This document shows positions 5,432 to 35,787 of a stretch of DNA of 52,313 nt, in pieces; positions within the stretch are counted from its first letter, which is position 1; each line of letters begins with the position of its first letter. The stretch spans positions 1-52,313 of the IMG/VR virus record IMGVR_UViG_3300009494_000005; one strand, 5' to 3'. Both the position numbers and the translations under genes were made by a program. This DNA comes from a virus. A model generated the notes under the pieces. It had not been told where the DNA came from and did no database searches. It saw nothing but the letters and a program-made list of their open reading frames with translations.

Positions 5432-5452
5432 TTCCGGCAGGAGGTCGCGGTC

Positions 5453-6136: not shown

Positions 6137-6137
6137 C

Positions 6138-7690: not shown

Positions 7691-7698
7691 GAGGACCG

Positions 7699-7875
7699 AT
7701 GCCGACACCGATGCAGTCCATGCACGCTAGGTGGAAACGAGAGCGAGAGGCGGCCGAGGCGGGCAAGGCCCCGGCCACGCGCCGAACACGGCGCACCACG
7801 CCGGCGACGCCGGCGACAGCGGACCCCGGGGCGGCTACCGAGCCGGACCCGACACGAGAGGAGGACGATAGCTAG
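7699..7875 (+). CDS. Small charged protein, unknown
   Basis: A 58-residue ORF starts at ATG behind GTAGGAGGACCG and ends with TAG immediately before the tail tube ATG. It opens PTPMQSMHARWKREREAAEA, passes through a Thr/Pro/Ala-rich stretch and ends acidic (TREEDDS). Copy 2 has a 57-residue equivalent (49245-49418) that keeps the SMHARWK start and EEDDS end with a diverged middle. That pattern supports real coding. Function is unknown; translational coupling to the tail tube gene is likely. Confidence 0.55.
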   Translation: MPTPMQSMHARWKREREAAEAGKAPATRRTRRTTPATPATADPGAATEPDPTREEDDS

Positions 7876-8391: not shown

Positions 8392-8407
8392 CCTCCTCCT
8401 AAAACCA

Positions 8408-8427
8408 CGGCCGAAGAAGAAAGGCCG
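8408..8427 (+). promoter_or_regulatory. Short hairpin overlapping a ribosome site
   Basis: CGGCC (8408-8412) pairs with GGCCG (8423-8427) around a purine loop GAAGAAGAAA. The 3' arm and loop end form the only purine-rich ribosome site before ATG 8431. The stem, loop and spacing are identical at 49950-49969. It may hold down translation of the next gene relative to the tail tube. Confidence 0.45.
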
Positions 8428-8430
8428 ACA

Positions 8431-9802: not shown

Positions 9803-10092
9803 AAGCCCGCGACGCGATCGAGGGCTATCGAACCGCTCAGGCTGTCACGAAGGAGGACATATTCCACGTCGGAGTCGCCGCCGCGTGCGGGACTACCGGC
9901 AAGATCGCAGAGCTTGCGGCCTACCTGATGGGGGACGATCCGAGCAGGATCAACGAACCGATCGAGGCCAAGGGCGAGACACCGGAACCCTTCCTCCGGC
10001 GCATACTCGAAACGCCCGGGGAGCACGTCGAGGTGGCACTAACACCCGACGGCGAGTACGACCTCGCGGCCTTCTTCGACGACGAGGAATAG
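8978..10092 (+). CDS. Tail assembly chaperone, -1 frameshift fusion (gpGT-like)
   Basis: The -1 frame is open from 9634, just after a TGA at 9631, to a TAG at 10090. It has no convincing start of its own. The sequence GGGGGAA at 9649-9655, read G GGG GAA in the chaperone frame, lies at the very beginning of this open stretch and in the longest run of identical bases near it between copies. A shift there gives about 371 residues. The -1 product has conserved protein before the chaperone stop (RGAVVRLYGLG, then LEARD in both copies) and a conserved end (PGEHVEVA, DLAAFFDDEE). Confidence 0.7.
9649..9655 (+). other. Candidate -1 slippery site
   Basis: GGGGGAA in phase G GGG GAA. The first codon can re-pair perfectly after a -1 slip; the second would re-pair imperfectly, so the exact slip codon is uncertain. 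Sequence from 9646 onward is identical to copy 2 for about 33 bases, more than expected from flanking divergence. Confidence 0.6.
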
Positions 10093-10096
10093 CCAA

Positions 10097-18233: not shown

Positions 18234-18263
18234 TTGACACCGGGTAGCACCCCGCGGTAGACT
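18234..18263 (+). promoter_or_regulatory. Sigma-70-like promoter
   Basis: TTGACA at 18234-18239 and TAGACT at 18258-18263 are separated by 18 bases. The -35 is perfect and the -10 matches four of six bases. It reads into the first gene of the 18-20 kb cluster through the sigma-54-like element at 18302. A similar CGCGGTA..T context precedes the -10 at 22309. Confidence 0.6.
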
Positions 18264-18275: not shown

Positions 18276-18332
18276 AAATGACCACCACGTAACACGGGAG
18301 TTGGAATCGGGCTTGCACCCTAGAGGAATAGA
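18276..18332 (+). promoter_or_regulatory. Sigma-54-like promoter element A
   Basis: TGGAATC-N4-TTGCA at 18302-18317 places GG (18303-18304) exactly ten bases from GC (18315-18316), the fixed geometry of RpoN -24/-12 promoters. The surrounding block, ATGACC then GTAACAC upstream and CCTAGAGG downstream, recurs at 20361, 21596 and, in part, 29036. It lies about 50 bases before the gene at 18370. Confidence 0.55.
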
Positions 18333-18369
18333 AGGAAGCAACGAAGGCCCCAACACGGAGGGACGGAAG

Positions 18370-18963
18370 ATGAGGCCAAGAATGGTAACCAGCGAAACCA
18401 GCACAGCCCCGATCACCGAGCACGAAGCACTGATCGACTACGCCGGCACCCGATACGTGATCGTGAGCATTAGCGACATCAAACACGACGAGCGACCCGA
18501 CCAATGGCAGATCTTCGCCATGAGGCCCGGAGGGCGCAAGGTGGTGATGGGGACGCTCTTCGGATTCGACGACGAAGGTTCCCCGAGGGTCTGGATCGGG
18601 CGCGACCTCGGGCTCCCCGTCAGAGCGCAGGACAAGTCCGCCGACGACGACAGCTGGACGAAGCCGAAGCGCGACGCGGCCGCCCGGGTGATGGAGCTCC
18701 GCGACAACGGATGGGTGATCGCGGGCGACGAGCGATTCAAGACCTTTCGGACGAGTCGGCACGGGGAACTGAACGAATACTGGAGCTACAACTACCGGGC
18801 CCCGAACGGGGAGAAGTTCAGCACAATAGCCGACACCTTGGAGGAGTGTCGAGCCCGCCGTGACAGTTGGCTAGCCGAGCACGACGCGGAAGTCTACTAC
18901 GACCTCAAGGCCGCCGAAGATGATGCCGGCGACAACAGCCTCAACGAAGGGAGCGGACGATGA
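18370..18963 (+). CDS. Unknown early protein
   Basis: The 197-residue product starts at ATG 18370 behind CGGAGGGACGG; an ATG at 18382 is an alternative. The sequence is acidic with a beta-rich first half (LIDYAGTRYVIVSISDIKHD, GGRKVVMGTLFGFDDEG) and a helical C-terminus (EECRARRDSWLAEHDAEVYY). There are no membrane segments. It heads an operon-like run driven by the promoters at 18234 and 18302, and its stop overlaps the next start. I do not recognise the family. Confidence 0.65.
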   Translation: MRPRMVTSETSTAPITEHEALIDYAGTRYVIVSISDIKHDERPDQWQIFAMRPGGRKVVMGTLFGFDDEGSPRVWIGRDLGLPVRAQDKSADDDSWTKPKRDAAARVMELRDNGWVIAGDERFKTFRTSRHGELNEYWSYNYRAPNGEKFSTIADTLEECRARRDSWLAEHDAEVYYDLKAAEDDAGDNSLNEGSGR

Positions 18964-19343
18964 ACACGCACGAGATCCAGAAACTCAAGGTGGTCGGGAT
19001 CGGCCTAGGGGCCGCAATCAACGCCACCGGAGGCCCCGGCCTCCCCGCGAACGTGATCGTCAGAATCACACCCCGTCGCGGCGACGTCCTCGAGACGGAC
19101 GACTACGACGAGGCGATGGACCACCTCTGCGGGAACAAGCTCGACAGGATCAGCCTCCGGCCGGCCGAGGTCGTCGGAGCGGAGGACACGCGCGACGGCA
19201 CGGTGATCTGCCGGCCTTGCCTCCTCAACGAACCCGCGCGGATGAGCGACCGATTCCGGCACCTCTCGCCCCGGGAGCTCAAGGCGATGCTCGCCCACCT
19301 CGACAGCGAGAAGTGCTCGCGGTGCGGAAGGGGCCTCAAGTGA
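18960..19343 (+). CDS. Small protein with C-terminal zinc-binding cysteines, unknown
   Basis: The 127-residue product overlaps the previous gene by ATGA and the next by GTGA. Its second half contains CRPC (near residue 83) and CSRC (near 120), a spacing consistent with one zinc site. The N-terminus is beta-rich (LKVVGIGLGAAINATGG). Small zinc proteins of this kind in phage early regions often bind nucleic acid or host proteins. No specific function can be given. Confidence 0.6.
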   Translation: MNTHEIQKLKVVGIGLGAAINATGGPGLPANVIVRITPRRGDVLETDDYDEAMDHLCGNKLDRISLRPAEVVGAEDTRDGTVICRPCLLNEPARMSDRFRHLSPRELKAMLAHLDSEKCSRCGRGLK

Positions 19344-19747
19344 GCACCCCACTCCGCAAACGGCACGCGCGGACCCTACTCGTCGAGACAGTGGAGGAGT
19401 TCAGCAAAATGCTCAGCGAGTCGTGCCGCCGGCACGGGATCGTCCGGGGCACCGGCGACACCCGGCGATGGGACAAGGTCACGCAGGAAGTGTTGACGAC
19501 CATCGGCCTCCGGGTGCCCATGACGACCCGGCAACTGTGGGACTACCTCGCCCGGGTAGCGAAGCAGAACGGCGGGACGTTCGAGACTCGATTCGAGAGC
19601 AAGATCGGCCCGAGCTTGTGCGACACGACAGGCTGGAGCCGGTCGCGGCTACGCCTCCAGCTAGTCGAGTGGGAGCGGGCTGGCGCGCTCAAGTTCCGGT
19701 GCCTGACGGCCGGACGCGGCACGCTCATCACAGGCATAAACGAGTAG
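19340..19747 (+). CDS. Winged-helix-like DNA-binding protein (putative regulator)
   Basis: The 135-residue basic product starts at GTG overlapping the previous stop. Residues about 85-130 read as a winged helix: LCDTTGWSRSRLRLQLVEWE as helix-turn-recognition helix, then AGALKFRCL and a Gly-rich wing (TAGRGTLITG). An upstream helical part (TTRQLWDYLARVAKQNGG) may serve in dimer contacts. It sits in the early cluster and is a candidate activator or replication-associated DNA binder. No AAA+ motif is present, so it is not a classic sigma-54 activator. Confidence 0.5.
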   Translation: MSTPLRKRHARTLLVETVEEFSKMLSESCRRHGIVRGTGDTRRWDKVTQEVLTTIGLRVPMTTRQLWDYLARVAKQNGGTFETRFESKIGPSLCDTTGWSRSRLRLQLVEWERAGALKFRCLTAGRGTLITGINE

Positions 19748-19756
19748 GAGGGCGAC

Positions 19757-20368
19757 GTGAGCTTTCACGACGGCGACATAGCCGCAATCGACGGCACGAT
19801 CGACGCTCAACACGCAGGGATCGTCAGGCGCGTGATAGGCGGCCGCGCGGAGGTCGCACTGACGACCGGGACCTCGACGCTGGCGCCGGCCTCCGACCTA
19901 GTCCTCCTCTGGACGTTCGACGCGGTGCGCGACACGCTAGGGGTCCGATTCATGACCTCCAAAGCCGAGCTCCAGTTCACCCGCGCGGCCGTGCTCGGAG
20001 GCGCGACGCTCACAGAGGCGCAAGCCGAGCAGATCCGGCGCGACGTCGAGGGCGCGATTGCCAAGGTCAAGCGGCAATTCCTCGACCACCGCGTGACCCT
20101 CCGGTGGCTGCACAACCTCGCGGAGCCCCGCCCGGTGATCGTCGTGATCCGGGAGCACCGAGGGAACGAGGACACCGCGACCGCACTGGAGATCCTACGG
20201 TGCCCGGCATCGGCCGCGGATTTCCTCCGGCGCGAGGCCCGAATCCCGGCCGTTGCAGGAAGCCCGCCACCCGTTGCACCTTGCGGCGGCCGGCACGCGG
20301 GCCGGGTAAGCTCCCGCCCGCAGGATCAGCGGACCCGTCAGAAGCCCACGAAACGGACCCGTAAATGA
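19757..20368 (+). CDS. Unknown early protein ending in a promoter cassette
   Basis: The 203-residue product starts at GTG behind GTAGGAGGGCGAC. The N-terminal 60 residues look beta-rich (AGIVRRVIGGRAEVALTTGT), followed by a helical region (TEAQAEQIRRDVEGAIAKVK). From about residue 160 the sequence becomes a low-complexity basic/Pro-rich tail. The stop codon lies inside promoter cassette B. The gene at 21327-21602 also ends RTRK at the same place of cassette C, so the 3' end may have been exchanged with the cassette. Confidence 0.55.
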   Translation: MSFHDGDIAAIDGTIDAQHAGIVRRVIGGRAEVALTTGTSTLAPASDLVLLWTFDAVRDTLGVRFMTSKAELQFTRAAVLGGATLTEAQAEQIRRDVEGAIAKVKRQFLDHRVTLRWLHNLAEPRPVIVVIREHRGNEDTATALEILRCPASAADFLRREARIPAVAGSPPPVAPCGGRHAGRVSSRPQDQRTRQKPTKRTRK

Positions 20369-20425
20369 CCCTCCGTAACACGACTTCTGGAATCGCCCTT
20401 GCACTACTAGGAGCCAGAACGAGGC
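20361..20425 (+). promoter_or_regulatory. Sigma-54-like promoter element B
   Basis: TGGAATC-N4-TTGCA at 20388-20403 keeps GG (20389-20390) and GC (20401-20402) ten bases apart. The upstream part GTAAATGACCCTCCGTAACAC is almost identical to element C, and the downstream leader shares GGCAAGGGAGCAGGACC with it. It precedes the gene at 20456 by about 50 bases. Confidence 0.55.
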
Positions 20426-20455
20426 AAGGGAGCAGGACCAACGGAGGAGGACGCG

Positions 20456-20830
20456 ATGAGCAAGACGAGCGCCCGAGAGCGACCGACCAAGGGCACGGCC
20501 GCCACCAGTTGCAAGCAGTGCAAGCACTACGAGGAGTTCAGCGCGGCCCGCACGAGCGGCACCTGCCACTACTGGATCGAGCAGACCGGCGAGGCCGGGT
20601 TGAGGTGCACGACCGCCGAGGAATGGACCTGCACGAAGTGGAACCCGCCGACCGAGGCCGGGAACCCGTGGCCGACAGTGATCGAGTTCGACGCGGCCGC
20701 CGAATACTACGGCGACGAGGGCGACGCGACGAGCGAAGCGACGGATGACTACTTCGCAGGATACGAGGTGCCGAGGGACGCGCGCACACTGATCACGCCC
20801 GAGGGCACGAGTCAGGCCGGCGACCACTAG
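20456..20830 (+). CDS. Cysteine-rich small protein, probable zinc binder
   Basis: The 124-residue product is the first gene after promoter element B. It carries CKQCKHY near residue 19, then CHYW, RCTT and CTKW, five Cys in 45 residues, suggesting a zinc-bound or disulfide-containing domain like those in small phage proteins with the CxxC-HYE pattern. The C-terminal half is acidic and lacks Cys. A strong GGAGGAGGACGCG ribosome site precedes the ATG. Confidence 0.6.
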   Translation: MSKTSARERPTKGTAATSCKQCKHYEEFSAARTSGTCHYWIEQTGEAGLRCTTAEEWTCTKWNPPTEAGNPWPTVIEFDAAAEYYGDEGDATSEATDDYFAGYEVPRDARTLITPEGTSQAGDH

Positions 20831-20865
20831 CCGCCCGGCACAACCGAGGAAGGGAGGACGGAGAA

Positions 20866-21330
20866 ATGCAGAGGACAATCGGCAGTTGCAAACGCAAGGC
20901 GCGGTTTCTGAGCGAGGCACACGGGGTCGACCTCCAGATCAACGTCGAATACGGTCAGCCTTCCGTGCTCGCACGGAGCCCGGGAGGCAAGAGGTGGCGC
21001 ACCGTCGTGACCCGACGCTCGACCGGGGAGGTGTTCGACGCGCTCTGCCACATGGAGGAGGCGTGGGAGCTCGTCGACAAGAACGCGCCCGCGATCAAGC
21101 CGGCATTCGTGATCGTGGAGGTCAGCGGCGGCACCGCCGAGGTGACACACTTCAGCGCACACGCGGTGGTGACCGTGATCGACCACGACACCCCCATGGA
21201 CGCCGAGGGCTCGCCGCGAACCTGCACCACGGCGGCCGACCTTGTGATGCTCGAACTGCGGCACTCGGGCAACCGGCAGGTCCGAACCGAAACCGCGAGC
21301 CGCGAGGCCCTAGAGAGGACAGAAGAATGA
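20866..21330 (+). CDS. Unknown early protein
   Basis: The 154-residue product starts at ATG behind GGAAGGGAGGACGGAGAA. It shows mixed alpha/beta pattern (VDLQINVEYGQPSVLARSPG, FVIVEVSGGTAEVTHF) and an acidic, helical end. Its stop overlaps the start of the next gene by ATGA, showing coupled translation. No motif I recognise. Confidence 0.6.
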   Translation: MQRTIGSCKRKARFLSEAHGVDLQINVEYGQPSVLARSPGGKRWRTVVTRRSTGEVFDALCHMEEAWELVDKNAPAIKPAFVIVEVSGGTAEVTHFSAHAVVTVIDHDTPMDAEGSPRTCTTAADLVMLELRHSGNRQVRTETASREALERTEE

Positions 21331-21602
21331 GCACTAGACGCAAGCTCCCGACGGTCTACCGGGCCCGCCTCCCGCTCAAGGCGGGAGGCCCGGCCGCGAT
21401 GGACGCCCGACTACGGCGCGCGGTCGCGGAGTTCGAGCGGATGTTCGGCCGGCCGGTGGTCCGAATCCGCTACCCCGTGACCGGCGGGGTGCACTCGCGG
21501 ATCGCAACGGTCACATCGCAAAACGCAATCAAGCCGACGGAGGACGCCGACCTGCCGGCCGGGATGATCGTTCTGGAGGCTCCCCGGCGCACCCGTAAAT
21601 GA
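21327..21602 (+). CDS. Small basic protein, unknown
   Basis: The 91-residue product overlaps the previous gene by ATGA. It has a helical centre (MDARLRRAVAEFERMFGRPV) and a beta-like segment (SRIATVTSQNAIK). The last residues RRTRK and the stop are encoded inside promoter cassette C, as in the gene that ends at 20368. Function is unknown. Confidence 0.55.
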   Translation: MSTRRKLPTVYRARLPLKAGGPAAMDARLRRAVAEFERMFGRPVVRIRYPVTGGVHSRIATVTSQNAIKPTEDADLPAGMIVLEAPRRTRK

Positions 21603-21660
21603 CCCTCTGTAACACCCGTTTTGGAATCGGCCTTGCACCCTAGAGGGGCAGAAGGACGGA
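21596..21660 (+). promoter_or_regulatory. Sigma-54-like promoter element C
   Basis: TGGAATC-N4-TTGCA at 21622-21637 keeps GG (21623-21624) and GC (21635-21636) ten bases apart. The block shares GTAAATGACCCTC and GTAACAC with element B, and CCTAGAGG and CAGAAGGA with elements A and D. It lies about 65 bases before the gene at 21701. Confidence 0.55.
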
Positions 21661-21700
21661 AGGAACCGGCAAGGGAGCAGGACCGAACAGGGAGGAAGCA

Positions 21701-21961
21701 ATGAGCACACGCAAGACGATCAGCCTGAGCCTGACGCGCGACGAGACCGTGACGCTTGGAGCCCTCGCGCAGAACGCGCTGACGAAGGAAGCCGTGACGG
21801 CGGCCTTCCCGAACCCGGACGCCGACCGCGCCCGGCGAGACTACGCCGAGGTCGGGACGGCACTTCTCGACGCGAGCACGACCGCGCTCCGAGAGTTCAA
21901 CAAGGACGAGGGGGCCGCGCGCGGCCTCAGCATCGACGGCCTCAGACGCGCCGGGAAGTAG
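21701..21961 (+). CDS. Small helical protein, unknown
   Basis: The 86-residue product is the first gene behind promoter element C, with a GGGAGGAAGCA ribosome site. The start STRKTISLSLTRDETVTLGA looks like a short strand followed by helices, loosely like a ribbon-helix-helix N-terminus. The remainder (DYAEVGTALLDASTTALREF) is amphipathic. A DNA-binding role is possible but not shown. Confidence 0.55.
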   Translation: MSTRKTISLSLTRDETVTLGALAQNALTKEAVTAAFPNPDADRARRDYAEVGTALLDASTTALREFNKDEGAARGLSIDGLRRAGK

Positions 21962-22025
21962 ACACACCACCGCCGGCGGGAGGAGCACAGGCGACCCCTC
22001 CCGCCGGCACCGACGAGGAGGACAG

Positions 22026-22289
22026 ATGCCAGCACGCAAGAAACCGCAGAAGCCGACAGTCCCGATCCGGGGCCTCACGAGGGGCCCGGCCTCCTGCATC
22101 AGGCCGCTGATCGTGATGGGCACGAACGAACGGCCGGGCGGCCGGGTCGAGTGGGACGCCCCCGCCGGCACGGTCAGGGGCTCGATTTTGGCAGTCTGGA
22201 GCGACGGCGTGACCCTCAGACGCATGGACACCGGCACCGAGCAGTTCCTCTACCGTGGCGACTACCGGGTGCTCAATCCGAAGGGTTGA
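22026..22289 (+). CDS. Small basic protein, unknown
   Basis: The 87-residue product starts MPARKKPQKPTVPIRGLTRG and continues with beta-like strands (SILAVWSDGVTLRRMDTG, QFLYRGDYRVLN). Its end overlaps the -35 of the promoter at 22286. An AGGAGGACAG ribosome site precedes the ATG. Function is unknown. Confidence 0.5.
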   Translation: MPARKKPQKPTVPIRGLTRGPASCIRPLIVMGTNERPGGRVEWDAPAGTVRGSILAVWSDGVTLRRMDTGTEQFLYRGDYRVLNPKG

Positions 22290-22314
22290 CACCCGGGGGC
22301 CCTCGCGGTATAAT
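22286..22314 (+). promoter_or_regulatory. Perfect-consensus sigma-70 promoter
   Basis: TTGACA at 22286-22291 and TATAAT at 22309-22314 are both perfect with a 17-base spacer. The start point would fall near 22321, giving a leader of about 20 bases before GTG 22343. This is the strongest promoter-like sequence found in the window. Confidence 0.88.
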
Positions 22315-22342
22315 CGACACATCGCCCCGGAAAGGAGCACAG

Positions 22343-22561
22343 GTGAAGAAGGACAGAGACACAGGCCCGAAGTTCCCGACCTCGATCAGGGTCAAGTGCA
22401 CGGAGGAGTTCAAGGCCGGCCTCGGCCGGGTCGCGGACTCGTGGACCGGGCGCAAGGGGCAAGAGTTCGACGTGAGCAAGCTGATCCGCACGCTCGGGGA
22501 GCGCGCGATCGCACGCGAGGCGCGACTGACTGCGAAGCGGAGGCGACGTGACAAAGCGTAG
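22343..22561 (+). CDS. Ribbon-helix-helix-like small regulator (putative)
   Basis: The 72-residue basic product starts at GTG behind AAAGGAGCACAG, directly downstream of the perfect promoter. A strand-like segment (FPTSIRVKCTEEFKAGLGRV) followed by helices with DVSKLIRTLGERAIAREARL fits the ribbon-helix-helix layout of small phage and plasmid repressors. Strong expression from a constitutive promoter would suit an early regulator. It overlaps the next gene by 14 bases. Confidence 0.5.
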   Translation: MKKDRDTGPKFPTSIRVKCTEEFKAGLGRVADSWTGRKGQEFDVSKLIRTLGERAIAREARLTAKRRRRDKA

Positions 22562-22982
22562 ACGCAAGCCGATCATCTGGCCCGACTACCGCACCTACCT
22601 GATCACGCGATTCACTCACACGAGGGACGCGGAGGAGTTCACGCGGAGGACCGGTCAACCGAGCAACATGATCTCGGACGGCCAGCTTCGCGGGTTCCTC
22701 ATCGACCATGCGAGGTGGGGAGTCGCGGCCCGGCCGGAACTGTGGCCGACCCTCCGACCCCACATCTACCTGCCGCGCTCCGAGGAGCCGTGGAACCTTG
22801 AGGTGGTGATCACCGACGGCCGGCTCATCGCGCAGACCATCGGAGATCCGCGCCACACCCGCGCTGGCATTCGGTCCTTCGCTGACCTCTGGGGCCCGCA
22901 CGGACCGCTTGAGATCCCCGACGAGGAGTGGCGACAAGACCCGGACTTTCAGAAGTGGCTTGACGAACGGAGGACGAAATAG
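22548..22982 (+). CDS. Unknown early protein
   Basis: The 144-residue product starts at GTG inside the end of the previous gene, behind GCGGAGGCGAC. It is rich in Trp, Arg and Pro (PIIWPDYRTYLITRFTHTRD, LWPTLRPHIYLPRSEEPWNL) and has a helical acidic end. No domain is recognised. It is co-transcribed with the small regulator from the 22286 promoter. Confidence 0.6.
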   Translation: MTKRRRKPIIWPDYRTYLITRFTHTRDAEEFTRRTGQPSNMISDGQLRGFLIDHARWGVAARPELWPTLRPHIYLPRSEEPWNLEVVITDGRLIAQTIGDPRHTRAGIRSFADLWGPHGPLEIPDEEWRQDPDFQKWLDERRTK

Positions 22983-23002
22983 CATGATCACCCCGATGGT
23001 TT

Positions 23003-23074
23003 CCCCCATCAACGGAGCCGGAGCCGGAGCACGCGGGTTGCCCCGCGCCTGACTCCGGTTCTCGTTGACGGGGG
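23003..23074. repeat. 72-base imperfect inverted repeat (long hairpin)
   Basis: CCCCCATCAACG (23003-23014) pairs with CGTTGACGGGGG (23063-23074) with one mismatch. After a five-base bulge, 23020-23029 pairs with 23053-23062 over ten pairs. Finally CGCGGG (23032-23037) pairs with CCCGCG (23042-23047) around a TTGC loop. The whole forms a 27-pair branched-free hairpin between two genes. It could be a terminator without U tract, a structured leader for the TTG gene at 23103, or a small RNA. Confidence 0.7.
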
Positions 23075-23102
23075 CCGTCGGACAACAGAACGGGGGAAGC
23101 CA

Positions 23103-23441
23103 TTGAAGGAGCACGAGAAGTGCCCACCGACCGAGACCCACGACACATCCCGCGCCAGCACCGCCGACACGGGCACAAGAACAGACGCCCCAAGCACCGA
23201 TGCGCCCGCCGTGGTGAGCATCGGCACTCGCGCCGTCGTCGAGATCGGGCCCGAGGAAGCGACCCCGACATGGGAGGAACGGGTCGCGGCCGACCCGACG
23301 CTCCTGACGCCCGATTGCGAGTGGGATCGGACGGACGACTACGCAATGACCGGTCAGCGCGCCCACGACAATGACATGGAGGAGCTCAGACAGGCCAACA
23401 CAGAGGCCCGCATCAAGCGCAACGGCGTGAGGTTCGGCTAG
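23103..23441 (+). CDS. Acidic/Thr-rich small protein, unknown
   Basis: The 112-residue product begins at TTG 23103 behind GGGGGAAGCCA, directly after the long hairpin. It is disordered-looking and Thr/Asp-rich at first (ETHDTSRASTADTGTRTDAP), then has a short strand-helix part (AVVEIGPEEATPTWEERVA). The TTG start and nearby hairpin suggest restrained translation. The start is uncertain. Confidence 0.45.
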   Translation: MKEHEKCPPTETHDTSRASTADTGTRTDAPSTDAPAVVSIGTRAVVEIGPEEATPTWEERVAADPTLLTPDCEWDRTDDYAMTGQRAHDNDMEELRQANTEARIKRNGVRFG

Positions 23442-23454
23442 GAGGCCCGACACC

Positions 23455-24930
23455 ATGAGCGACAAAGCCCCGGAAACGGAGAAGGCACCGGCGGTGCACA
23501 AGGATGGCGACAGCCCGTTCGACGCCTGTGACAACCGCGACATGGACTACCTCGACGCACAGTGTCGAGGGCTCGACCTGATTCAACCGCTCGCCCATTT
23601 TTGGATCGAGGACGAGAGCGGCGAGGCGACCTACGCGCTCACCAAGTCGGGCGTAGAGGAAGCCGGTAGACTCGGAGGAGGCGTCGACTGCCCGCTCGCG
23701 GGGCTCAGAGTCGAAGCCGATGGCACCCTCTGGAACGCGGAGCAGGAAGGTCAGAGCATGACGACCAAGCTCCGGCGGGTCGGGTCGGCCTCCGCGAGCA
23801 TCCTCAACTACCACGGCAAGCCCGACAGGTTCGGTCGGCGCAAGGCGGTCAGCCTCGCACAGCGGAACGCGATCAACGCGCTCCTGACGCCCGAGCAGAA
23901 AGCCAAGATGATCACGCACGCAATCGACATCGGGAGCGTTGAGCAGATCACCGAGCCGTGGAAGAAGGAGGACAAGAAGAAGCGCGGACGTCCGGCCGCC
24001 GGCAAGGCCCCGGGAGCACCGCAGAAGCGCGAGCAACCGAAGGGACGTGCACCGACGAAGGACGAAGCACTCGACTACTTCAACAGCGTGATGGGCGAGG
24101 TGATCGCGGCCGTCGCCATGAGGACCGACCGCGACCCGAAGGAAGTCAAGCGCGACATGATCCGCGCGACGGTCCGACGCGGCACGCGGCAGAGGTTCCA
24201 CAACGCCGAAGAAATGCCGCTCCAAGAACTGGTCGCCCTGATCCGCAAGGTAGAGGGCGCAACCGCCGAGGCCGTGAGGTGGTTGAACACCGACGAGTGG
24301 GAGGACGTGCTCGAGACTGGAGGGAGTGGCGCGGAACTGACAAAGCCGACGCCCGCTCCCGTGGTGGGGGGGGGAAACACTGGGGCTACGCCTCCCCCGC
24401 CCGAACCTCCTGACGGCGAAGATCCGGGGCCGACCGAGGAGCTCCCTGCGGGCGACGCGGAGAAAGATGCACCTGATTCGGGCTCCTCCTCCGGGGGCAG
24501 CGCCTCCGGTGCGGGGGGAGAGCTCCCCGACGGTGCAACTTGCGCGGAGTCTAACGCGGACGCGGACGAGCCGGTCCCGGACGAACCGGAGAACCTCGAC
24601 GCCGCACGCGCGAACGCGGCCGAGATCGTGGGACGGATTCTCAAGGCGGTGCCGGTAGAGGGCATCGGAGAGACTCGGGCGAAGCGACAGAGGGCAATCG
24701 ACGCGGTCCGAGCCAACATGACCAAGGCCGTGGTCAGGACCGGGACCGGAGGGAGGACGGAGGACGCGAGCACGCTGACCGTGGCCGAGCTCCTCAACCT
24801 GACCGCCCTCATCGCCCGGGACGAGCGCGCGATCGTGAAGTGGCTGACGAACGGCCGATACTTGAGCTCGGAGATCGCACCGCCGGACACGCAGTGCGAC
24901 CTTCTCAAAAGCTCTACGAACCCTAATTAA
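23455..24930 (+). CDS. Recombination/annealing-type protein with duplicated C-terminal domain (putative)
   Basis: In this 491-residue protein, residues about 120-150 carry GRRKAVSLAQRNAINALLTP, close to the ekavSkAQRNAi-L-P motif near the end of Rad52/Erf-like single-strand annealing domains. A basic linker and a helical domain follow (DPKEVKRDMIRATVRRGT to EAVRWLN, about 223-278). After a long Pro/Gly/Asp-rich linker (about 285-385) a second copy of that helical domain appears (RAIDAVRANMTKAVVRTGT to AIVKWLT). A run of nine G at 24366-24374 encodes part of the linker. It lies beside the candidate origin and the RusA-like gene. Confidence 0.45.
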   Translation: MSDKAPETEKAPAVHKDGDSPFDACDNRDMDYLDAQCRGLDLIQPLAHFWIEDESGEATYALTKSGVEEAGRLGGGVDCPLAGLRVEADGTLWNAEQEGQSMTTKLRRVGSASASILNYHGKPDRFGRRKAVSLAQRNAINALLTPEQKAKMITHAIDIGSVEQITEPWKKEDKKKRGRPAAGKAPGAPQKREQPKGRAPTKDEALDYFNSVMGEVIAAVAMRTDRDPKEVKRDMIRATVRRGTRQRFHNAEEMPLQELVALIRKVEGATAEAVRWLNTDEWEDVLETGGSGAELTKPTPAPVVGGGNTGATPPPPEPPDGEDPGPTEELPAGDAEKDAPDSGSSSGGSASGAGGELPDGATCAESNADADEPVPDEPENLDAARANAAEIVGRILKAVPVEGIGETRAKRQRAIDAVRANMTKAVVRTGTGGRTEDASTLTVAELLNLTALIARDERAIVKWLTNGRYLSSEIAPPDTQCDLLKSSTNPN

Positions 24931-25132
24931 GTACAAAACTAGTAGTAGTAGTAGGGACGGTGGAAATGTGGACGGGAGGGTGCAAAGCGTTGAGGCTAAA
25001 AGGGGAGCCGGAGGCGCGGGGCGGTGGAGAACCGGTTGACAACTGGGGACCGGTGTGGACCGAAAAGGGGCGGTCCGCACTTACACACCGCCCTGCACCG
25101 CCCGTTCACAGACTTATCAACAGGATGTGCAC
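24915..25132. other. Candidate replication origin region
   Basis: This interval holds no gene apart from the last codons of the upstream one. It begins with locally A/T-rich DNA and a TAG trinucleotide repeat (24942-24958). Further on are the palindromes AACCGGTT (25030-25037) and GTTGACAAC (25035-25043), and a ten-pair inverted repeat GTGTGGACCG / CGGTCCGCAC (25053-25080). TTATCAACA at 25114-25122 is one base from the DnaA box. A melting region, inverted repeats and a DnaA-box-like word next to recombination genes suggest an origin; this is inference. Confidence 0.4.
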
Positions 25133-25717
25133 ATGACCGGGTTCGAGTTCATAATCATAGGCGGCCCGCACGGAGGAGAGATCGAGAACCCGACGTGCTA
25201 CGCGCGGACGACGCAACGGAGCAAGCACATCAGGTGGACCCGGTCGCGGATCTCGGAGGCGACCGGCAAGGTGCTCCCGCCACGGCTCACACAGTGGGCC
25301 CGTTATCAAGACTACGTCGAGCACGTCAGGCGGGCCTTCGGGGTTTACGAACGAGACCAGCTGATCGAGGAGATCTGGCCGATCCTCCACGCCAAGGAGG
25401 GCAAGGTTGTGGTGGACGTCGTCGCGCAGTTCCGGGGCCGCCAGCACTCCGACGCCGACCACGTCGCCAGCACGGTTGCCGACGCACTGTTCCCGAGGCC
25501 GCCGACTAAGCGACCGCGTCGGAGGAGCGGGGCAACGTGGGGATACGACACACTCCGACATTCGCCGGGCGACGGCCTCGTGCTTGCCCGGATGCTCGAT
25601 TTCATCGACGGCGCCGATTCGGCTTTCGTCGTGGTCAAGATACACGGGCCCTACCCGCGCGACTGGTGGGGTGCGGGCCCGATTCCGAACCTGACACGAC
25701 TACGGGGGGGCGCGTGA
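25133..25717 (+). CDS. RusA-like Holliday junction resolvase (putative)
   Basis: In this 194-residue protein, the segment VVDVVAQFRGRQHSDADHVA (about residues 86-105) followed by TVADALF matches the RusA pattern of a strand, then D-x-D with a downstream Asp. RusA dimers cut four-way junctions that arise in phage replication and recombination. The start FEFIIIGGP is a first strand, and the C-terminal SAFVVVKIHGPYP another. ATG 25133 has a modest AGGA ribosome site. Neighbours are the annealing-type protein and the candidate origin. Confidence 0.5.
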   Translation: MTGFEFIIIGGPHGGEIENPTCYARTTQRSKHIRWTRSRISEATGKVLPPRLTQWARYQDYVEHVRRAFGVYERDQLIEEIWPILHAKEGKVVVDVVAQFRGRQHSDADHVASTVADALFPRPPTKRPRRRSGATWGYDTLRHSPGDGLVLARMLDFIDGADSAFVVVKIHGPYPRDWWGAGPIPNLTRLRGGA

Positions 25718-26640
25718 CACACCTCGTTAGCAGGCTGATCCGCTGGGCGACCGGTCGGGCGCGAATAGAGGGCGCGACCCGGTCAGACCTCGTCGACCTT
25801 ACATCAGCCGAACGCCGCGCGTCCTCCGGGGTAGACCACCTAGCACGGGCAATCAGAGGTGCGATCTACGACGGGCTCTGCGAAGGGCTCACCGTCAAGC
25901 AGATCTCCGACCAGATAGAGGTACTCTGGTCGACGGTGATCGCAACCGACGAGATCCGGCGGCTCCTCCGCGCCGAGCTCAAGCGCATGACGAGGGTTCC
26001 AGTGCGGGTGCTGAGCCCTCGCGACCACGGCAAGATGATCGAGCTCACCATCCTCGACGACGTCGCGCCGATCCCCGCGCACCTCCTCAAGCCCGAGCAT
26101 ACCGAGGCCGGCGACCGCGAAAGCAACCGCATCGAGTGTGGAGTCTACGCGCGGATCGAGGCTCAACGGCGGGCCCTCGCGCGAGACTTCCCGGGCTTCG
26201 CTGAGCGGTTCCTTGCCCATAGTCCAGTGGCGGAGGCGTCGGAGGGGGTAAACTCTCCTCCAGCGTCGCCAACGGAGCCCACGGAGCAGGTTTGGGGGCC
26301 TTCCCCGCTCCGACGGGCCTTGTCATGGTGGAGGCTCCTGACAGGAGGACGAGTGAAGGAGAACTGGAGAGTGGTGGTCGACGTCCCGATTGCGGACGTG
26401 CAGGAGGAGGACAAGGACGCGGCGATGCTCGACATCTGCCGAGCGTGGGCTTCGGACATTGGCGTCGAGGTGCCGGAGGGCACGAGCATCAAGATTCTCT
26501 GCAATGATGAGGCAGGGAACATCGTGGCCTACCCGCTCAGGGCGGCCGTCGAGGAGCCCGCCCCCGCGTCAGGCGACGAGATCACCGACCCGGACGGCAA
26601 GGCTCCGGTGCTGGAGGACGACGACCCCGCGCCTGAGTAG
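25714..26640 (+). CDS. Unknown protein; probable read-through of two coding segments
   Basis: The frame is open for 308 codons from GTG 25714, which overlaps the RusA-like stop. Residues 1-175 are well ordered by pattern (IRGAIYDGLCEGLTVKQISD, PVRVLSPRDHGKMIELTILD). Residues about 176-212 are low-complexity (SPPASPTEPTEQ) and coincide with a non-coding-like stretch that repeats a 17-mer found at 18084. The last part has its own strong in-frame start at 26353. It is thus either one long protein or a protein with an independently translated C-terminal part. Confidence 0.5.
   Translation: MTHLVSRLIRWATGRARIEGATRSDLVDLTSAERRASSGVDHLARAIRGAIYDGLCEGLTVKQISDQIEVLWSTVIATDEIRRLLRAELKRMTRVPVRVLSPRDHGKMIELTILDDVAPIPAHLLKPEHTEAGDRESNRIECGVYARIEAQRRALARDFPGFAERFLAHSPVAEASEGVNSPPASPTEPTEQVWGPSPLRRALSWWRLLTGGRVKENWRVVVDVPIADVQEEDKDAAMLDICRAWASDIGVEVPEGTSIKILCNDEAGNIVAYPLRAAVEEPAPASGDEITDPDGKAPVLEDDDPAPE
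26353..26640 (+). CDS. Nested in-frame protein with GDEITDP C-terminal motif
   Basis: GTG 26353 is preceded by ACAGGAGGACGA, a very strong ribosome site, and would give 95 residues starting VKENWRVVVDVPIADVQEED. The compact helical/strand part reads like an independent domain. The end, SGDEITDPDGKAPVLEDDD, closely matches the C-terminus of the head-associated protein (TGDEITDP at 3429-3812 and 45063-45425). At DNA level GGCGACGAGATCACCGACCC is shared exactly with copy 2. This links an early-region protein to a virion protein by a common tail. Confidence 0.5.
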   Translation: MKENWRVVVDVPIADVQEEDKDAAMLDICRAWASDIGVEVPEGTSIKILCNDEAGNIVAYPLRAAVEEPAPASGDEITDPDGKAPVLEDDDPAPE

Positions 26641-26732
26641 ACAATGGCCGGCGGCTCCGGCACCTGACAAGCAGGGAACGCGCCCGGCCGAATGGCCGTA
26701 GCACCGGGGCCGCCACCGAGGAGGGGGAAACC

Positions 26733-26930
26733 GTGACAGAGAATCAGGCGATCAAGCACGCCATGGCCGCACACCGAGCAGGGCACGACGCTTGCGCGCA
26801 GACCGTAGGCGGCACGACGTCGGGCCGTTGGGCGGTTCACCTAGACCACGGCCGTCGGATCATGGAGGACCACAGCGAGTGCGTGACTGAGATCCGGCGG
26901 CTCCAAGCGATCAACAGGAGGAAGCGTTGA
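26733..26930 (+). CDS. Small basic His-rich protein, unknown
   Basis: The 65-residue product starts at GTG behind CGAGGAGGGGGAAACC. It contains several His and Arg (AIKHAMAAHRAGHDACAQTV, HLDHGRRIMEDHSEC) and a basic end that overlaps the next start in TTGA. No family is recognised. The 92 bases before it hold no gene. Confidence 0.5.
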   Translation: MTENQAIKHAMAAHRAGHDACAQTVGGTTSGRWAVHLDHGRRIMEDHSECVTEIRRLQAINRRKR

Positions 26931-27526
26931 CCTCGATCTTCGACAAGGTGCTCCGGTACGACCGAGCGAGCTTCCCGTCGGCGGTCCTCGTCACCGGTCC
27001 ACAGCGGGCCGGCACGCGGATCGCAGCCAAGATGGTCGCGGCCGACATCGGGCACACCTACTACGACGAGACCACCATCGGCATCAACAAGCTAGACCTC
27101 GCGCTCACCGTTATGCGACGGGGCGCGGTCGTGCTCCACGCGCCCGGGCTCTGCCACCTGTCACACCTCCTAACGGACGCGCGACTCGCCCGGGTGCCGA
27201 TCAATGTGATCATCGTCCGGCGCGCTCTGCCCGACATCATCAAGTCATGCGAGCGGATCAACTGGAACGACCGCGACGAGCGCGCGGCCTATCGGGGCCG
27301 GCCGGAGTTTGGCCCCTACATGACCGACGGCGCGCACGTCGCGCAGTGGAAATACGAAGTCCTCGACTGCTACCAACGCCCTTACGCCGGCCGGCTCGTT
27401 GGGACGTTCTACTTCCAGATTGCCTATGAGGACTTGCGCGCGCACCCGTTGTGGTTGCCGAAGGAGGACCGCACTGATTGGGAGTGGGACCGCACCGCTC
27501 CCGGCAAAGGAGGCAGGAACGCATGA
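26927..27526 (+). CDS. P-loop sulfotransferase-like protein
   Basis: The 199-residue product starts at TTG overlapping the previous stop, behind ACAGGAGGAAGCG. VLVTGPQRAGTRIAAKMVA (residues about 20-38) matches the PAPS 5'-phosphosulfate-binding loop (GPxRxGT) better than a kinase Walker A. INVIIVRRALPDIIKSCERI (about 91-110) resembles the RxxxDxxxS 3'-phosphate loop. WKYEVLDCYQ and YFQIAYEDL fit later family motifs. If active it would transfer sulfate to a sugar, protein or small molecule. A P-loop kinase is the alternative. Confidence 0.5.
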   Translation: MTSIFDKVLRYDRASFPSAVLVTGPQRAGTRIAAKMVAADIGHTYYDETTIGINKLDLALTVMRRGAVVLHAPGLCHLSHLLTDARLARVPINVIIVRRALPDIIKSCERINWNDRDERAAYRGRPEFGPYMTDGAHVAQWKYEVLDCYQRPYAGRLVGTFYFQIAYEDLRAHPLWLPKEDRTDWEWDRTAPGKGGRNA

Positions 27527-27921
27527 GCAGACACACAATCAGAGCGGCCGTGCAGAGCCTTGAGGGGTTCGACACGGAGGACATGGCGGCCGTGATCTCC
27601 GCACTGGAGGCCGCCAAGGTTGCCGACCTCGCGATAGTCGAGGAGGCAGGGACCATGCTCGCGGTCGACGACCGGACCGTTCACCTAGTGGCATGGCCCG
27701 CCGGGGTTCTGATTCCCGAGATCGGGGAGAACCTCACCCCGACACTGGAGGTGTCGGAGTGCGAGAACTGCCGCCGGCAGAGCATCCTGATCGGGCAACA
27801 GCACGACGCGATTCGGCAACTGACCCACCTCGTCAGGAGCCTGACCCGGATCGTCGAGGTCTACACCAACGCGACGGTCTACACGACCATGAACCCGGAG
27901 GGAGGCGACAGTGGCCAATGA
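27523..27921 (+). CDS. Unknown protein with CxxC motif
   Basis: The 132-residue product overlaps the previous gene by ATGA. It begins helical (TIRAAVQSLEGFDTEDMAAV), has a beta middle (VDDRTVHLVAWPAGVLIPEI), one CENC motif near residue 82, and a long amphipathic helix (HDAIRQLTHLVRSLTRIVEV) that may drive oligomerisation. Its end overlaps the next start by 11 bases. Function is unknown. Confidence 0.6.
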   Translation: MSRHTIRAAVQSLEGFDTEDMAAVISALEAAKVADLAIVEEAGTMLAVDDRTVHLVAWPAGVLIPEIGENLTPTLEVSECENCRRQSILIGQQHDAIRQLTHLVRSLTRIVEVYTNATVYTTMNPEGGDSGQ

Positions 27922-28567
27922 TCCGCGGATAGTGCCGGTCGGAATCCCGGTCGACAGTCTCGCGGTCGCGGCATACATGAGCTACGCCGTGACGAAGCTC
28001 AAGAACGACGGCGATCTCGAGGAGGAAGGGCGGCCCGAGGATCAGGTGCCGCCGTTCAAGGATCTCCCGCCGGCCGAGCAAGCCGGTTGGCTCGCGGCGG
28101 TTCAGGGCGTGCTCTCCAACGGAGGCATGACATTCGCCACGCGGCCGCCGGGCCAACTAGCGATCGACCTCGGCGTAATGACCGTGGAGGAGATCGCAGA
28201 GACCTACCCGATCCGGCAAGCGGAGGACGGCAACGTGCGGCTCCCGTCGACACCCGACGCGACGACTTGGCAGATGTTCGGCCGGATCACCGCGCGGTTC
28301 CTCGGGCACGCCGGGCTCATCGTGCCGGCCGCCATGACACAGGGCATCCTCAAGGAGACAATCGGGCCGACCGGCGACGAGACCGAGGGCGCACCGATCA
28401 TCGGCGCGGTCGCGGTTGTCGAGATCCCCTACGAGTGCTTCCGCGCGCTGACCGATGCAGGGTTCGAGGACGGCGAAACCGTGAGCCTCGGAATCCTTAA
28501 CCCGATGAGCGCGAAGGACAAGCCCAACGACGCGATGCTCGAACCTACGGAGGGAGGAGCACATTGA
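27911..28567 (+). CDS. Unknown protein
   Basis: The 218-residue product starts at GTG behind GGAGGGAGGCGACA. It is acidic and mixed alpha/beta (VDSLAVAAYMSYAVTKLKND, GLIVPAAMTQGILKETIG, VAVVEIPYECFRALTDAGF). The stop overlaps the start of the following gene in TGATG. No motif is recognised; it belongs to a tightly coupled run from 25714 to 28998. Confidence 0.6.
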   Translation: MANDPRIVPVGIPVDSLAVAAYMSYAVTKLKNDGDLEEEGRPEDQVPPFKDLPPAEQAGWLAAVQGVLSNGGMTFATRPPGQLAIDLGVMTVEEIAETYPIRQAEDGNVRLPSTPDATTWQMFGRITARFLGHAGLIVPAAMTQGILKETIGPTGDETEGAPIIGAVAVVEIPYECFRALTDAGFEDGETVSLGILNPMSAKDKPNDAMLEPTEGGAH

Positions 28568-28998
28568 TGGCACACGACGAGGAGGTGGTCACAATCACGG
28601 AGCTCGCGAGCACGCCCGAGCTCATCAAGATCCGTGACGTGTTCGCGGCCGGCCGGCCGGAGGAACTTGGAGCCCTCCGTAACGACATCCTCGCCGCCGT
28701 GCTGACGGAGCTCGTCGGCTACCGGACGATGCAGGACGCCGAGGAGCAAGCCGCCCGGGCTCTCGCGGAAGGGCACGAGGTTGACACGCTCACCCTGACG
28801 GCCGCCCGCTTCAAGCTCGCCCTCTCCAAGCTCCAACAGGAGCTTGATCGGAGGATCGGGGTCAGCACCTCCCAGTACGGGCAGAACATCATCGAGTGCC
28901 TCGACCTTCTCACCGCCCTCCTGTTGCAACACGCAACGGAGCCGGGCGATTTGCCCGGCCGAGGCGACATGGCCGGGCGGGACCGTTCGGGGGGGTAA
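28567..28998 (+). CDS. Helical protein, unknown
   Basis: The 143-residue product starts at ATG 28567, overlapping the previous stop. It is mostly helical (ALRNDILAAVLTELVGYRTM, ARFKLALSKLQQELDRRIGV) and ends in a Gly/Arg-rich tail. The DNA for the tail contains GTTGCAAC and the seven-pair inverted repeat GCCGGGC/GCCCGGC (28941-28959), so the end of the gene overlaps regulatory-looking sequence. Function is unknown. Confidence 0.6.
   Translation: MAHDEEVVTITELASTPELIKIRDVFAAGRPEELGALRNDILAAVLTELVGYRTMQDAEEQAARALAEGHEVDTLTLTAARFKLALSKLQQELDRRIGVSTSQYGQNIIECLDLLTALLLQHATEPGDLPGRGDMAGRDRSGG
28941..28959. repeat. Short inverted repeat at the end of an operon-like run
   Basis: GCCGGGC (28941-28947) and GCCCGGC (28953-28959) form a seven-pair stem with a GATTT loop, inside the final codons of the gene ending at 28998. 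It is just upstream of the promoter pair at 29005-29064 and may act as a weak terminator or operator. Confidence 0.4.
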
Positions 28999-29004
28999 AT
29001 CCGG

Positions 29005-29033
29005 TTGCCCCCGCGTTGCCCCCGTGGTAGGGT
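29005..29033 (+). promoter_or_regulatory. Weak sigma-70-like promoter
   Basis: TTGCCC at 29005-29010 and TAGGGT at 29028-29033 with a 17-base spacer. The match is only moderate, but placement just before a sigma-54-like element mirrors the pair at 18234/18302. Confidence 0.35.
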
Positions 29034-29035
29034 TG

Positions 29036-29085
29036 TAATAGACGGAGTTGGAATCAGACTTGCACTACAGAGGGGCAGAAGGGAG
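29036..29085 (+). promoter_or_regulatory. Sigma-54-like promoter element D
   Basis: TGGAATC-N4-TTGCA at 29049-29064 keeps GG (29050-29051) and GC (29062-29063) ten bases apart. GGAGTTGGAATC is shared with element A, and AGAGGGGCAGAAGG with element C. It stands about 28 bases before ATG 29092 and would drive the cargo region. Confidence 0.55.
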
Positions 29086-29091
29086 GACAAG

Positions 29092-29238
29092 ATGAGAACA
29101 CTGACCCTGACACTAGCAATCGCCGGCCCGATGGCACTGACCCTGAGCACGGCGATGATCCTGATTCTAGCCGCCGTCGCGCTGACCGCCGGCCTGACAG
29201 TGGACGGACTGAGCGATCTGAGGAGGGCGAAATGCTGA
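29092..29238 (+). CDS. Small membrane protein, unknown
   Basis: The 48-residue product starts at ATG behind AGGGAGGACAAG and is the first gene after promoter element D. Nearly all of it is hydrophobic (LTLAIAGPMALTLSTAMILI, LAAVALTAGLTVDG), enough for one long or two short membrane segments, followed by a basic end. It overlaps the next small gene by seven bases. It may be an inner-membrane peptide, holin-like or an exclusion factor. Confidence 0.5.
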   Translation: MRTLTLTLAIAGPMALTLSTAMILILAAVALTAGLTVDGLSDLRRAKC

Positions 29239-33531: not shown

Positions 33532-33812
33532 TCTTCGAGTTGCGGGTTCTGTTCTGGCTTGCCGTCAGGATCGCGGGGGGGGTTGTCGAGCACATCGGGG
33601 CCCGCCTCCGCGAGATCCGCGAGAGCCCGCCGTGCTACGGGTCCGGTCTCGAGCCGCCGGGGCCTGACGACGTGTTCACCGCGCCTCTCGAGGACGACAA
33701 GTGGGGCGCGCCTAGTGTCGGAGGGCCCTTGACCGCCGAGGAGTTCGACCGCCTCCGCGATCGCATGAACAGTGGCGAGCCGGTAGACCTCAACCGCGAG
33801 GAGATCAACTGA
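33513..33812 (+). CDS. Small protein, unknown
   Basis: The 99-residue product overlaps the end of the glycosyltransferase by 19 bases and the next gene by TGATG. The first 30 residues are amphipathic and hydrophobic (VIFELRVLFWLAVRIAGGVV), possibly membrane-associated, and the rest is acidic with a helix (TAEEFDRLRDRMNSGEPVDL). A run of eight G at 33575-33582 lies near its start. Function is unknown. Confidence 0.5.
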   Translation: MRDQGVIFELRVLFWLAVRIAGGVVEHIGARLREIRESPPCYGSGLEPPGPDDVFTAPLEDDKWGAPSVGGPLTAEEFDRLRDRMNSGEPVDLNREEIN

Positions 33813-34360
33813 TGGGCAAGCTGACCATGGAATACCGGAGGCTCGACGACGTCGTGCCGGCCGACGAGAACCCGAAGGGGCACAAGATCGGCGCCATCAT
33901 CGAGTCGATCAAGCGGCGCGGGTTCGCTGACGGACTCGTGGAGGACGGGCGCACAGGGAAGCTTGTCGGGGGGCACGGCCGCCTCCAAGCTCTCCAGCAG
34001 ATGCGGGACGCGCACGAGCCGGAACCGGAGGGGATCATGGTGAGCGACGCCGGGTGGTTCGTGCCTGTGCAGGTGGGATGGCGGTCGAAGAACGACGCCG
34101 ACGCCCGCGCGATGCTCGTCGCGCTCAACAAGATCGTCGAGCTCGGGGGATGGGACGAGGTCATACTCGGGCCGTTCCTGCGGGGGATCAACGACGACGG
34201 CGAGCTCATAGGAACCGGGTTCAACGAGCACGACCTCAAGGGATTCGGTGACGCCGGGCCTGACGGTGGGTTCGGAGGAGAGCCCGGCGGTGGAGGGCCC
34301 CGCGAGGGCGTGCACCGCACCTGTCCGAAATGCGGCTTCCAGTGGACGGAGGACGCTTGA
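33812..34360 (+). CDS. ParB/sulfiredoxin-fold (ParB-like nuclease domain) protein with zinc motif
   Basis: In this 182-residue protein, residues 7-65 match the ParB-N/sulfiredoxin fold: YRRLDDVVPADENPKGH, then IIESIKRRGFADGLVED, and the hallmark GGHGRLQAL (53-61). The C-terminus ends in a Gly-rich linker and CPKCGFQW with a preceding Cys-lacking stretch, perhaps half of a zinc site. Phage ParB-like proteins act as nucleases, NTP-using enzymes or DNA-modification partners. It overlaps the radical-SAM gene by TGATG, suggesting joint action. Confidence 0.65.
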   Translation: MGKLTMEYRRLDDVVPADENPKGHKIGAIIESIKRRGFADGLVEDGRTGKLVGGHGRLQALQQMRDAHEPEPEGIMVSDAGWFVPVQVGWRSKNDADARAMLVALNKIVELGGWDEVILGPFLRGINDDGELIGTGFNEHDLKGFGDAGPDGGFGGEPGGGGPREGVHRTCPKCGFQWTEDA

Positions 34361-35787
34361 TGCAGAAGATCGGATGGTTGATGTATGAGGGCCCATACAA
34401 GAACTCGCGCGGCACGTCGGCCTCCTTCCTCAGGCAAGGGAACATCGGCGCCCTCGTGGTGTTCGACATCCTCCGGCGCGCGGGCTTCGAGTGTGTCCCG
34501 GTCGTTCCTCGAGACGCCCACCAGTTCGACGTCGTCGCGTTCTCCCTGACGAGCTCGTTCGACTACTACAACTTCCTCCGGGCTGTCGGGAAGCTCCCGG
34601 AGTGGCAGCCGGGACGGCGCAAGTTCAAGGTGATCGCCGGCGGGGCCGGCCTCAACAACGCGCTCGCCCTCCGGAATTACGTCGACTACGCCGCCTACGG
34701 CCGGGCCGAGGTGTTCATCGCGAATCTCGTTGCCGACGCGATCGCCGGCCGTCCGAGCAAGAGCCCGCACGTCCTCAACCTCCCCGAGATCCGGCCCGTG
34801 ACCTACGCTCAGGTTGACGAGCTCTACGAGCACGAGGTTGACGTGCCGGCGGTACACAGCGGGAAGTGGTGCGAGCACAACATCGGATGCCACCGGTGTT
34901 GCTACTTCTGCTTCTACCGCTACTCCCGGAAGTTCGTCAGCGAGCGCGAGACCTACAAGTACTCAGGAGCGGACGGACCGGGGGGAGGAATGCAGATCGA
35001 GCTCACCATGCTCGACGTGATCGAGAAGTGGCACGGTGAGTGGCCCCGCCTCCTGCCGGCGGCCGACGGATTCTCAGAGCGGCTCCGGTTCGCGTTCAAC
35101 AAGAAGATCAGCCGCGACATGATCGCGGAGGTCGGCCGGCACCTTGCCGACGTGTGGACCCTCACCCGAGGGCACGAGCCCGAGAAGCGGCTCCGGTGCA
35201 TGGTCTACAACATCGCCAACCTGCCGACCGAGACTGACGAGGACCGGGCCGAACTGCCCGCGGATCTTGTCAACGCCGCACCTGACGGCCGCGTGACCTA
35301 CGTTCTACACTCGACCCCGTTCCGTCCCTCGCCGCTCACGCCCTCCGCGTACCTCCCCGTTGCACTGTTCCCCGCTCACCGCCTCCAGCCGGGCGAGAGC
35401 AAGCTGCTCGGGAAGGAAGGGAACACGCAGGTGTTCGTGTCAGGGACTCAGGAATCCCCGATCTCGCAACTGATGAGCCTCATCATCGAGCGTGCCACCG
35501 ACCCCGATCTGACCGACAAGATCCTCGGGTCGATGCTGTTCGGCAAGGACTACCGCCGGCAGAAAACGTGGCGCGACAAGCTCCGCGCCCTGTCGGGATG
35601 GTTCGACCTCGACGGCTACCTCCGCAGTTATAGCCTTGACGAGCCCCTGCCGACGTGGTATCTCGGCTCGTACACGAAGCCGGCGACGGTTCGCCGGCAA
35701 GCCAAGCGACTCAAGGGTGCGCTCGGCATACTGGAGCCCGGGGAGGGTGACGACGTTGACGACGCTACACCTGCCAATCATCCGTAG
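34360..35787 (+). CDS. Radical SAM protein with B12-binding-like N-terminal domain
   Basis: In this 485-residue protein, Cys177-x3-Cys181-x2-Cys184 (GCHRCCYFCFYR) is the CX3CX2C signature that binds the 4Fe-4S cluster and SAM. Two extra Cys (171 and 180) flank it. Residues 25-130 look like a Rossmann domain (DVVAFSLTSSFDYYNFLRAV, FKVIAGGAGLNNALALRNYV), the place of the cobalamin-binding domain in B12-dependent radical SAM methylases, but the DxHxxG motif is not evident. Residues 230-400 would form the barrel. It may carry out a difficult C-H chemistry on a glycan, nucleic acid or peptide. The gene overlaps the ParB-like gene. Confidence 0.7.
   Translation: MQKIGWLMYEGPYKNSRGTSASFLRQGNIGALVVFDILRRAGFECVPVVPRDAHQFDVVAFSLTSSFDYYNFLRAVGKLPEWQPGRRKFKVIAGGAGLNNALALRNYVDYAAYGRAEVFIANLVADAIAGRPSKSPHVLNLPEIRPVTYAQVDELYEHEVDVPAVHSGKWCEHNIGCHRCCYFCFYRYSRKFVSERETYKYSGADGPGGGMQIELTMLDVIEKWHGEWPRLLPAADGFSERLRFAFNKKISRDMIAEVGRHLADVWTLTRGHEPEKRLRCMVYNIANLPTETDEDRAELPADLVNAAPDGRVTYVLHSTPFRPSPLTPSAYLPVALFPAHRLQPGESKLLGKEGNTQVFVSGTQESPISQLMSLIIERATDPDLTDKILGSMLFGKDYRRQKTWRDKLRALSGWFDLDGYLRSYSLDEPLPTWYLGSYTKPATVRRQAKRLKGALGILEPGEGDDVDDATPANHP

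Follow-up and report, generated by a model that had tools for sequence, protein, structure and literature searches.

Repeated putative sigma-54-type promoter cassettes before small genes in a phage genome and its closest detected relative

The analyzed window, a 52,313-nt IMG/VR record from an uncultured phage, carries four oriented copies of a repeat that, judging by sequence and context, are on balance probably sigma-54-type (RpoN) promoter cassettes; that they act as DNA-level promoters of some kind is clearly more probable. Both gradings are our judgement and were not computed. As the initial annotation had reported, TGGAATC-N4-TTGCA occurs exactly at positions 18302, 20388, 21622 and 29049, always on the + strand and in gaps between genes, and in all four copies GG is followed after ten bases by GC. 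The window contains no further exact copies, and a chance origin of the repeats is ruled out, with four exact matches against 0.002 expected from base composition on both strands. The repeat-bearing stretch is presumably the early region, a label that follows from its position behind the late tail operon and the terminator-like hairpin of that operon. The copies, the adjacent sigma-70-like promoters and the genes behind them are as follows.

18234..18263, + strand: sigma-70-like promoter TTGACA-N18-TAGACT, 38 bp 5' of copy 1
18289..18317, + strand: copy 1, with GTAACAC (18289-18295), candidate -24 box TGGAATC (18302-18308) and candidate -12 box TTGCA (18313-18317)
18370..18963, + strand: gene after copy 1, 197 aa, DUF3873 domain
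20375..20403, + strand: copy 2, with GTAACAC (20375-20381), TGGAATC (20388-20394) and TTGCA (20399-20403); no sigma-70-like promoter nearby
20456..20830, + strand: gene after copy 2, 124 aa, no family match
21609..21637, + strand: copy 3, with GTAACAC (21609-21615), TGGAATC (21622-21628) and TTGCA (21633-21637); no sigma-70-like promoter nearby
21701..21961, + strand: gene after copy 3, 86 aa, no family match
29005..29033, + strand: weak sigma-70-like promoter TTGCCC-N17-TAGGGT, just 5' of copy 4
29036..29064, + strand: copy 4, with TAATAG (29036-29041, a degenerate TAACAC box), TGGAATC (29049-29055) and TTGCA (29060-29064)
29092..29238, + strand: gene after copy 4, 48 aa, ortholog of the gene after the last copy in the closest relative (72% identical)

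The distance from the C of GC to the ATG is 54, 54, 65 and 29 bp, near the 28-65 bp claimed earlier, and each of the genes starting at 18370, 20456, 21701 and 29092 has a Shine-Dalgarno site. Copy 3 begins 6 bp past the stop codon of the preceding gene. The conservation of the flanks, also claimed earlier, is only partial. Upstream, GTAACAC stands six bases 5' of TGG in three of the four copies, and the copy at 29049 carries TGTAATAG with the spacing one base longer; downstream, the AGAGG..CAGAAGG segment is degenerate at 20388 and 18302.

The first 25 kb of the window were compared with 50,697 phage records, none of which matches closely. A terminase search identified the relatives G1 (IMGVR_UViG_3300009494_000008, 83% identical), G2 (IMGVR_UViG_3300011118_000010, 57%) and G3 (IMGVR_UViG_3300028920_000137, 51%), as well as the distant G4 (IMGVR_UViG_3300031772_000034) and G5 (31%). 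G1 contains six distinct cassette copies and one hybrid duplicate at the overlapping contig ends. The cassette common to the window and G1 is GTAACA-N7-TGG(C/A)A-N8-TGCAC. In G1, GTAACA precedes a core of TGGCACG or TGGCACA, N4, and TTGCA or ATGCA, and three copies have the canonical form TGGCACG-N4-TTGCA. The candidate -12 box is TTGCA in all four window copies and in three G1 copies, and ATGCA in three G1 copies. A comparison with relatives had been proposed in the initial annotation and was carried out here: GG-N10-GC is unvarying in the ten copies of the two phages (four in the window, six in G1), while the flanks and the other positions of the -24 box vary. Within the core, TGG.A, TGCA and the C that directly follows are identical in all ten copies, at sigma-54 spacing. 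In five G1 copies CTGTAGGTAGTCGGAAG is found 3' of the core, and conservation in G1 extends through the leader up to the Shine-Dalgarno site; the downstream leaders of the window and G1 differ, with the boxes kept. Among viral contigs, multiple copies were found only in G1, and a looser scan gave single, chance-like matches among the matches listed. G2 has CGGCACA-N4-TTGCA at the position syntenic to copy 1, and G3 lacks the element at the syntenic place.

The sigma-54 (RpoN) consensus of the -24/-12 elements is TGGCACG-N4-TTGC (PMC3224663, PMC3844500). The copies of both phages resemble it in the GG-N10-GC spacing, T-14 and the A after GG (TGG.A), as well as in orientation and distance to genes, and the three canonical G1 copies match it fully. 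For scoring, we used a matrix built from the 29 intergenic Salmonella RpoN ChIP-chip sites printed in PMC3844500; its own known sites score 14.0-20.1. The G1 copies are the seven best matches on both strands of that genome (six sites and the duplicate), scoring 17.3-20.1, with the next match at 10.6; the probability that a random GC-matched position reaches a score of 20 is 1.6e-7. The G2 site scores 12.6. The window copies, in which the -24 half departs from TGGCAC as noticed earlier, score 7.9 and rank only 8th-11th in the window, below the known-site minimum of 14.0. The score is lowered by two substitutions in the -24 box, A for C following GG and C for G at the last position. Among the invariant bases are GG and the A (bottom-strand T), which sigma-54 contacts (PMC3844500). 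By our estimate, the variable positions taken alone speak for sigma-54 in G1 and against it in the window, and together they are roughly neutral, so that the weight rests on the invariant bases, the spacing and the context. The TGGAATC variant is the weakest point of the sigma-54 reading and also the most interesting one, because it is common to all four window copies.

The genomic context argues for a promoter function. Most copies sit before genes that are unrelated between the window and G1, namely ORFans of a hypervariable region; the window at 18.0-22.0 kb is barely alignable to G1. Such behaviour is expected of portable expression cassettes. Copy 4 is different, being the ortholog of the G1 reverse-strand copy 11424 (TGGCACGGGGCTTGCA). 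The first site of the window, G1 and G2 has a sigma-70-like promoter 29-38 bp 5' of the element, the counterparts of 18234..18263 being TTGACA-N18-TATGAT in G1 and TTGACA-N17-TACAAT in G2; the G1 counterpart of the weak promoter before copy 4 is TTGCAC-N17-TATCCT. Copies 1 and 4 could thus form tandem sigma-70/sigma-54 promoters, or be operators, as far as their sequences suggest. Since a sigma-70-like promoter is adjacent, the element is dispensable for expression at these two places, a point against the sigma-54 reading. Near the middle copies there is no sigma-70-like promoter, though the window and G1 each have a perfect consensus one elsewhere, TTGACA-N17-TATAAT at 22286-22314 of the window, adjoining the hypervariable region, and likewise at reverse-strand position 3637 of G1. 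Two G1 copies (43123 and 2765) lie directly behind terminator-like hairpins of -30 and -33 kcal/mol; no more than 1.3% of random stretches fold as strongly. These two reverse-strand hairpins are GC-rich and alike, share GGGATCTCCTCCCC and have no T run.

The same arrangement would be found if the repeats were asymmetric sites bound by a regulator of the phage, like those of mycobacteriophage L5. Copies 1 and 4, next to sigma-70-like promoters, would then be operators, and copies 2 and 3, in the short intergenic gaps, would be "stoperators" that halt elongation. We consider this explanation unlikely, though it is the most probable of the alternatives. The L5-type sites of cluster A mycobacteriophages, as PMC9283540 describes them, are asymmetric, oriented with transcription and located in promoters and short intergenic gaps, and the layout of our cassettes matches them in all these respects. 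However, the cassettes are a longer, three-block element whose copies, six at most, all lie in a single part of the genome; lysogeny genes were not detected, and a search of the window, G1, G2 and G3, which was not exhaustive, found neither a tyrosine integrase nor an HTH_3 repressor. Besides, the almost perfect agreement of the G1 copies with sigma-54 would have to be a coincidence, an extra stop site would be of little use at the two G1 copies behind strong hairpins, and conservation in G1 runs through the leader to the Shine-Dalgarno site.

That last property, together with the location of the copy 1 element inside the predicted sigma-70 leader, would suit a leader-RNA element acting in antitermination, in translation control or like a riboswitch. 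Such an element is very improbable. The ten copies have no stable or shared fold (z-scores from -1.7 to +1.1 relative to shuffled sequences), and Rfam gives no match; on these grounds an RNA element was rejected. Moreover, the TAACAC box of copy 4 overlaps the predicted transcription start, most of this box would not be in the RNA, and the leaders of the window and G1 differ downstream with the boxes retained. A DNA promoter fits best because unrelated ORFans lie behind the copies, the middle copies have no sigma-70-like promoter, hairpins stand upstream of two G1 copies and no RNA fold is conserved.

The GTAACAC box, at about -39 to -33, is conserved yet lies outside the sigma-54 consensus, and it speaks against sigma-54. 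It would be accounted for by another kind of promoter, read either by a sigma-70-family factor or activator recognizing TAACAC-N17-TTGCAC, or by a regulator bound to three direct repeats of TNNCAC, spaced by roughly one turn of the helix. The distance from TAACAC to TTGCAC is exactly the -35/-10 spacing, and the G1 boxes TAACAC, TGGCAC and TTGCAC share TNNCAC at intervals of 12 and 11 bp. On the other hand, TTGCAC or TATGCA is poor as a -10 box, with no TANNNT at the right distance; every window copy has TGGAAT as its middle repeat; TAACAC decays in the last copy, whereas TGG and TGCA do not; and no phage sigma-70-family factor was found. This possibility appears rather improbable, slightly more so than the L5-type sites. 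The RpoN reading of the initial annotation is sustained in part: GG-N10-GC is kept in relatives, the G1 -24 box is the canonical TGGCACG, and the obvious alternatives gain no support from RNA folds, from a sigma-70-family factor of the phage or from lysogeny genes, but the window score is below the known minimum and GTAACAC is unexplained.

Under the sigma-54 reading, the cassette would consist of the GTAACAC box, a -24 element TGG(C/A)A(C/T), a -12 element (T/A)TGCA and a short leader ending in the Shine-Dalgarno site. Host RNA polymerase with sigma-54 would form a closed complex at each copy, before a small phage gene or mini-operon. Opening of this complex would depend on a host AAA+ activator, and the genes would hence fire only while the activator is on. 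Transcription would start at the cassettes, and both sigma-54 and the activator would come from the host. Genes for RpoN or a bEBP were not found in the window, G1 or G2, a scan for the GAFTGA motif gave only a short opposite-strand ORF, and no sigma-70-family factor was detected in the window or G1-G3. With none found, a phage-encoded RpoN, bEBP or sigma-70-family factor as the driver was rejected. Besides TGGAATC in the window and the GTAACAC box, differences from known sigma-54 promoters are the occurrence as a repeated set in a phage and the lack of a recognized activator site: no shared dyad or activator motif above random was found in the 220 bp upstream of the copies. Activator sites of bEBPs have no common consensus and may lie elsewhere. 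As to the host, a terminase search of genome contigs and plasmids gave no match, and the cassette pattern had two single matches in genome contigs, about the chance level. Matches in the phage collection are at most about 40% identical and come from phages of many different hosts. Codon use (CTC 53-64% of Leu, GAG 83-84%, AAG 88-93%) and a GC content near 64% are not decisive for the host.

Among phages with studied transcription, most rely on promoters of the sigma-70 type, on a polymerase of their own or on a sigma factor that they encode; use of the host sigma-54 pathway is seldom reported. A literature search of partial coverage found no description of a phage with a repeated set of sigma-54-type promoters. 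If the proposed reading is true, infection would be wired to a host stress or nutrient signal via accessory genes, through promoters that do not open spontaneously when the activator is absent. A broader scenario, to which we give somewhat less than an even chance, is that this phage lineage uses a three-block sigma-54-type promoter (GTAACAC / -24 / -12) as the standard cassette of its hypervariable accessory early genes, tied to the state of a host AAA+ activator. The joint shift of the window copies to TGGAATC would then imply an altered sigma-54 specificity or a helper protein reading GTAACAC.

Another set of repeated elements is provided by cluster K mycobacteriophages, where the start-associated sequence (SAS) is the 13-bp sequence GGGATAGGAGCCC at the start codon and ESAS has 17-bp inverted repeats (PMC3203893). 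Similarly to the cassettes, SAS/ESAS precede some of the non-structural genes and are oriented like them, as described there. Identity with them was rejected: the cassettes have three spaced blocks 29-65 bp upstream of the gene, a different sequence and no paired arms. A closer parallel in layout is found in G4, which has repeated promoter-leader-Shine-Dalgarno blocks before many small genes; these sigma-70 early-promoter cassettes differ in having TTGACA and a TATAAT-like box instead of the -24/-12 core. The G4 block, TTGACACAAA..TTATAATTAAAGTAAGAAAGGAGG, recurs in the gaps starting at 425, 4182, 5403, 7344, 9331, 10185, 17730 and 28776.

Elsewhere in the window, the gene at 33812-34360 encodes a ParB-like protein with an additional match to a phage DNA methyltransferase family. 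The gene at 34360-35787 encodes a protein of 475 aa whose radical-SAM N-terminal and B12-binding matches are weak and fall short of the Pfam cut-offs, and its match in G1 is limited to a short piece. The ends of the window, 1-10783 and 41659-52313, are homologous (76-83% identical) and encode the same head and tail genes twice; these genes occur once in G1. Probably, two related strains were joined in this record, across a circularly permuted genome of roughly 41.6 kb.
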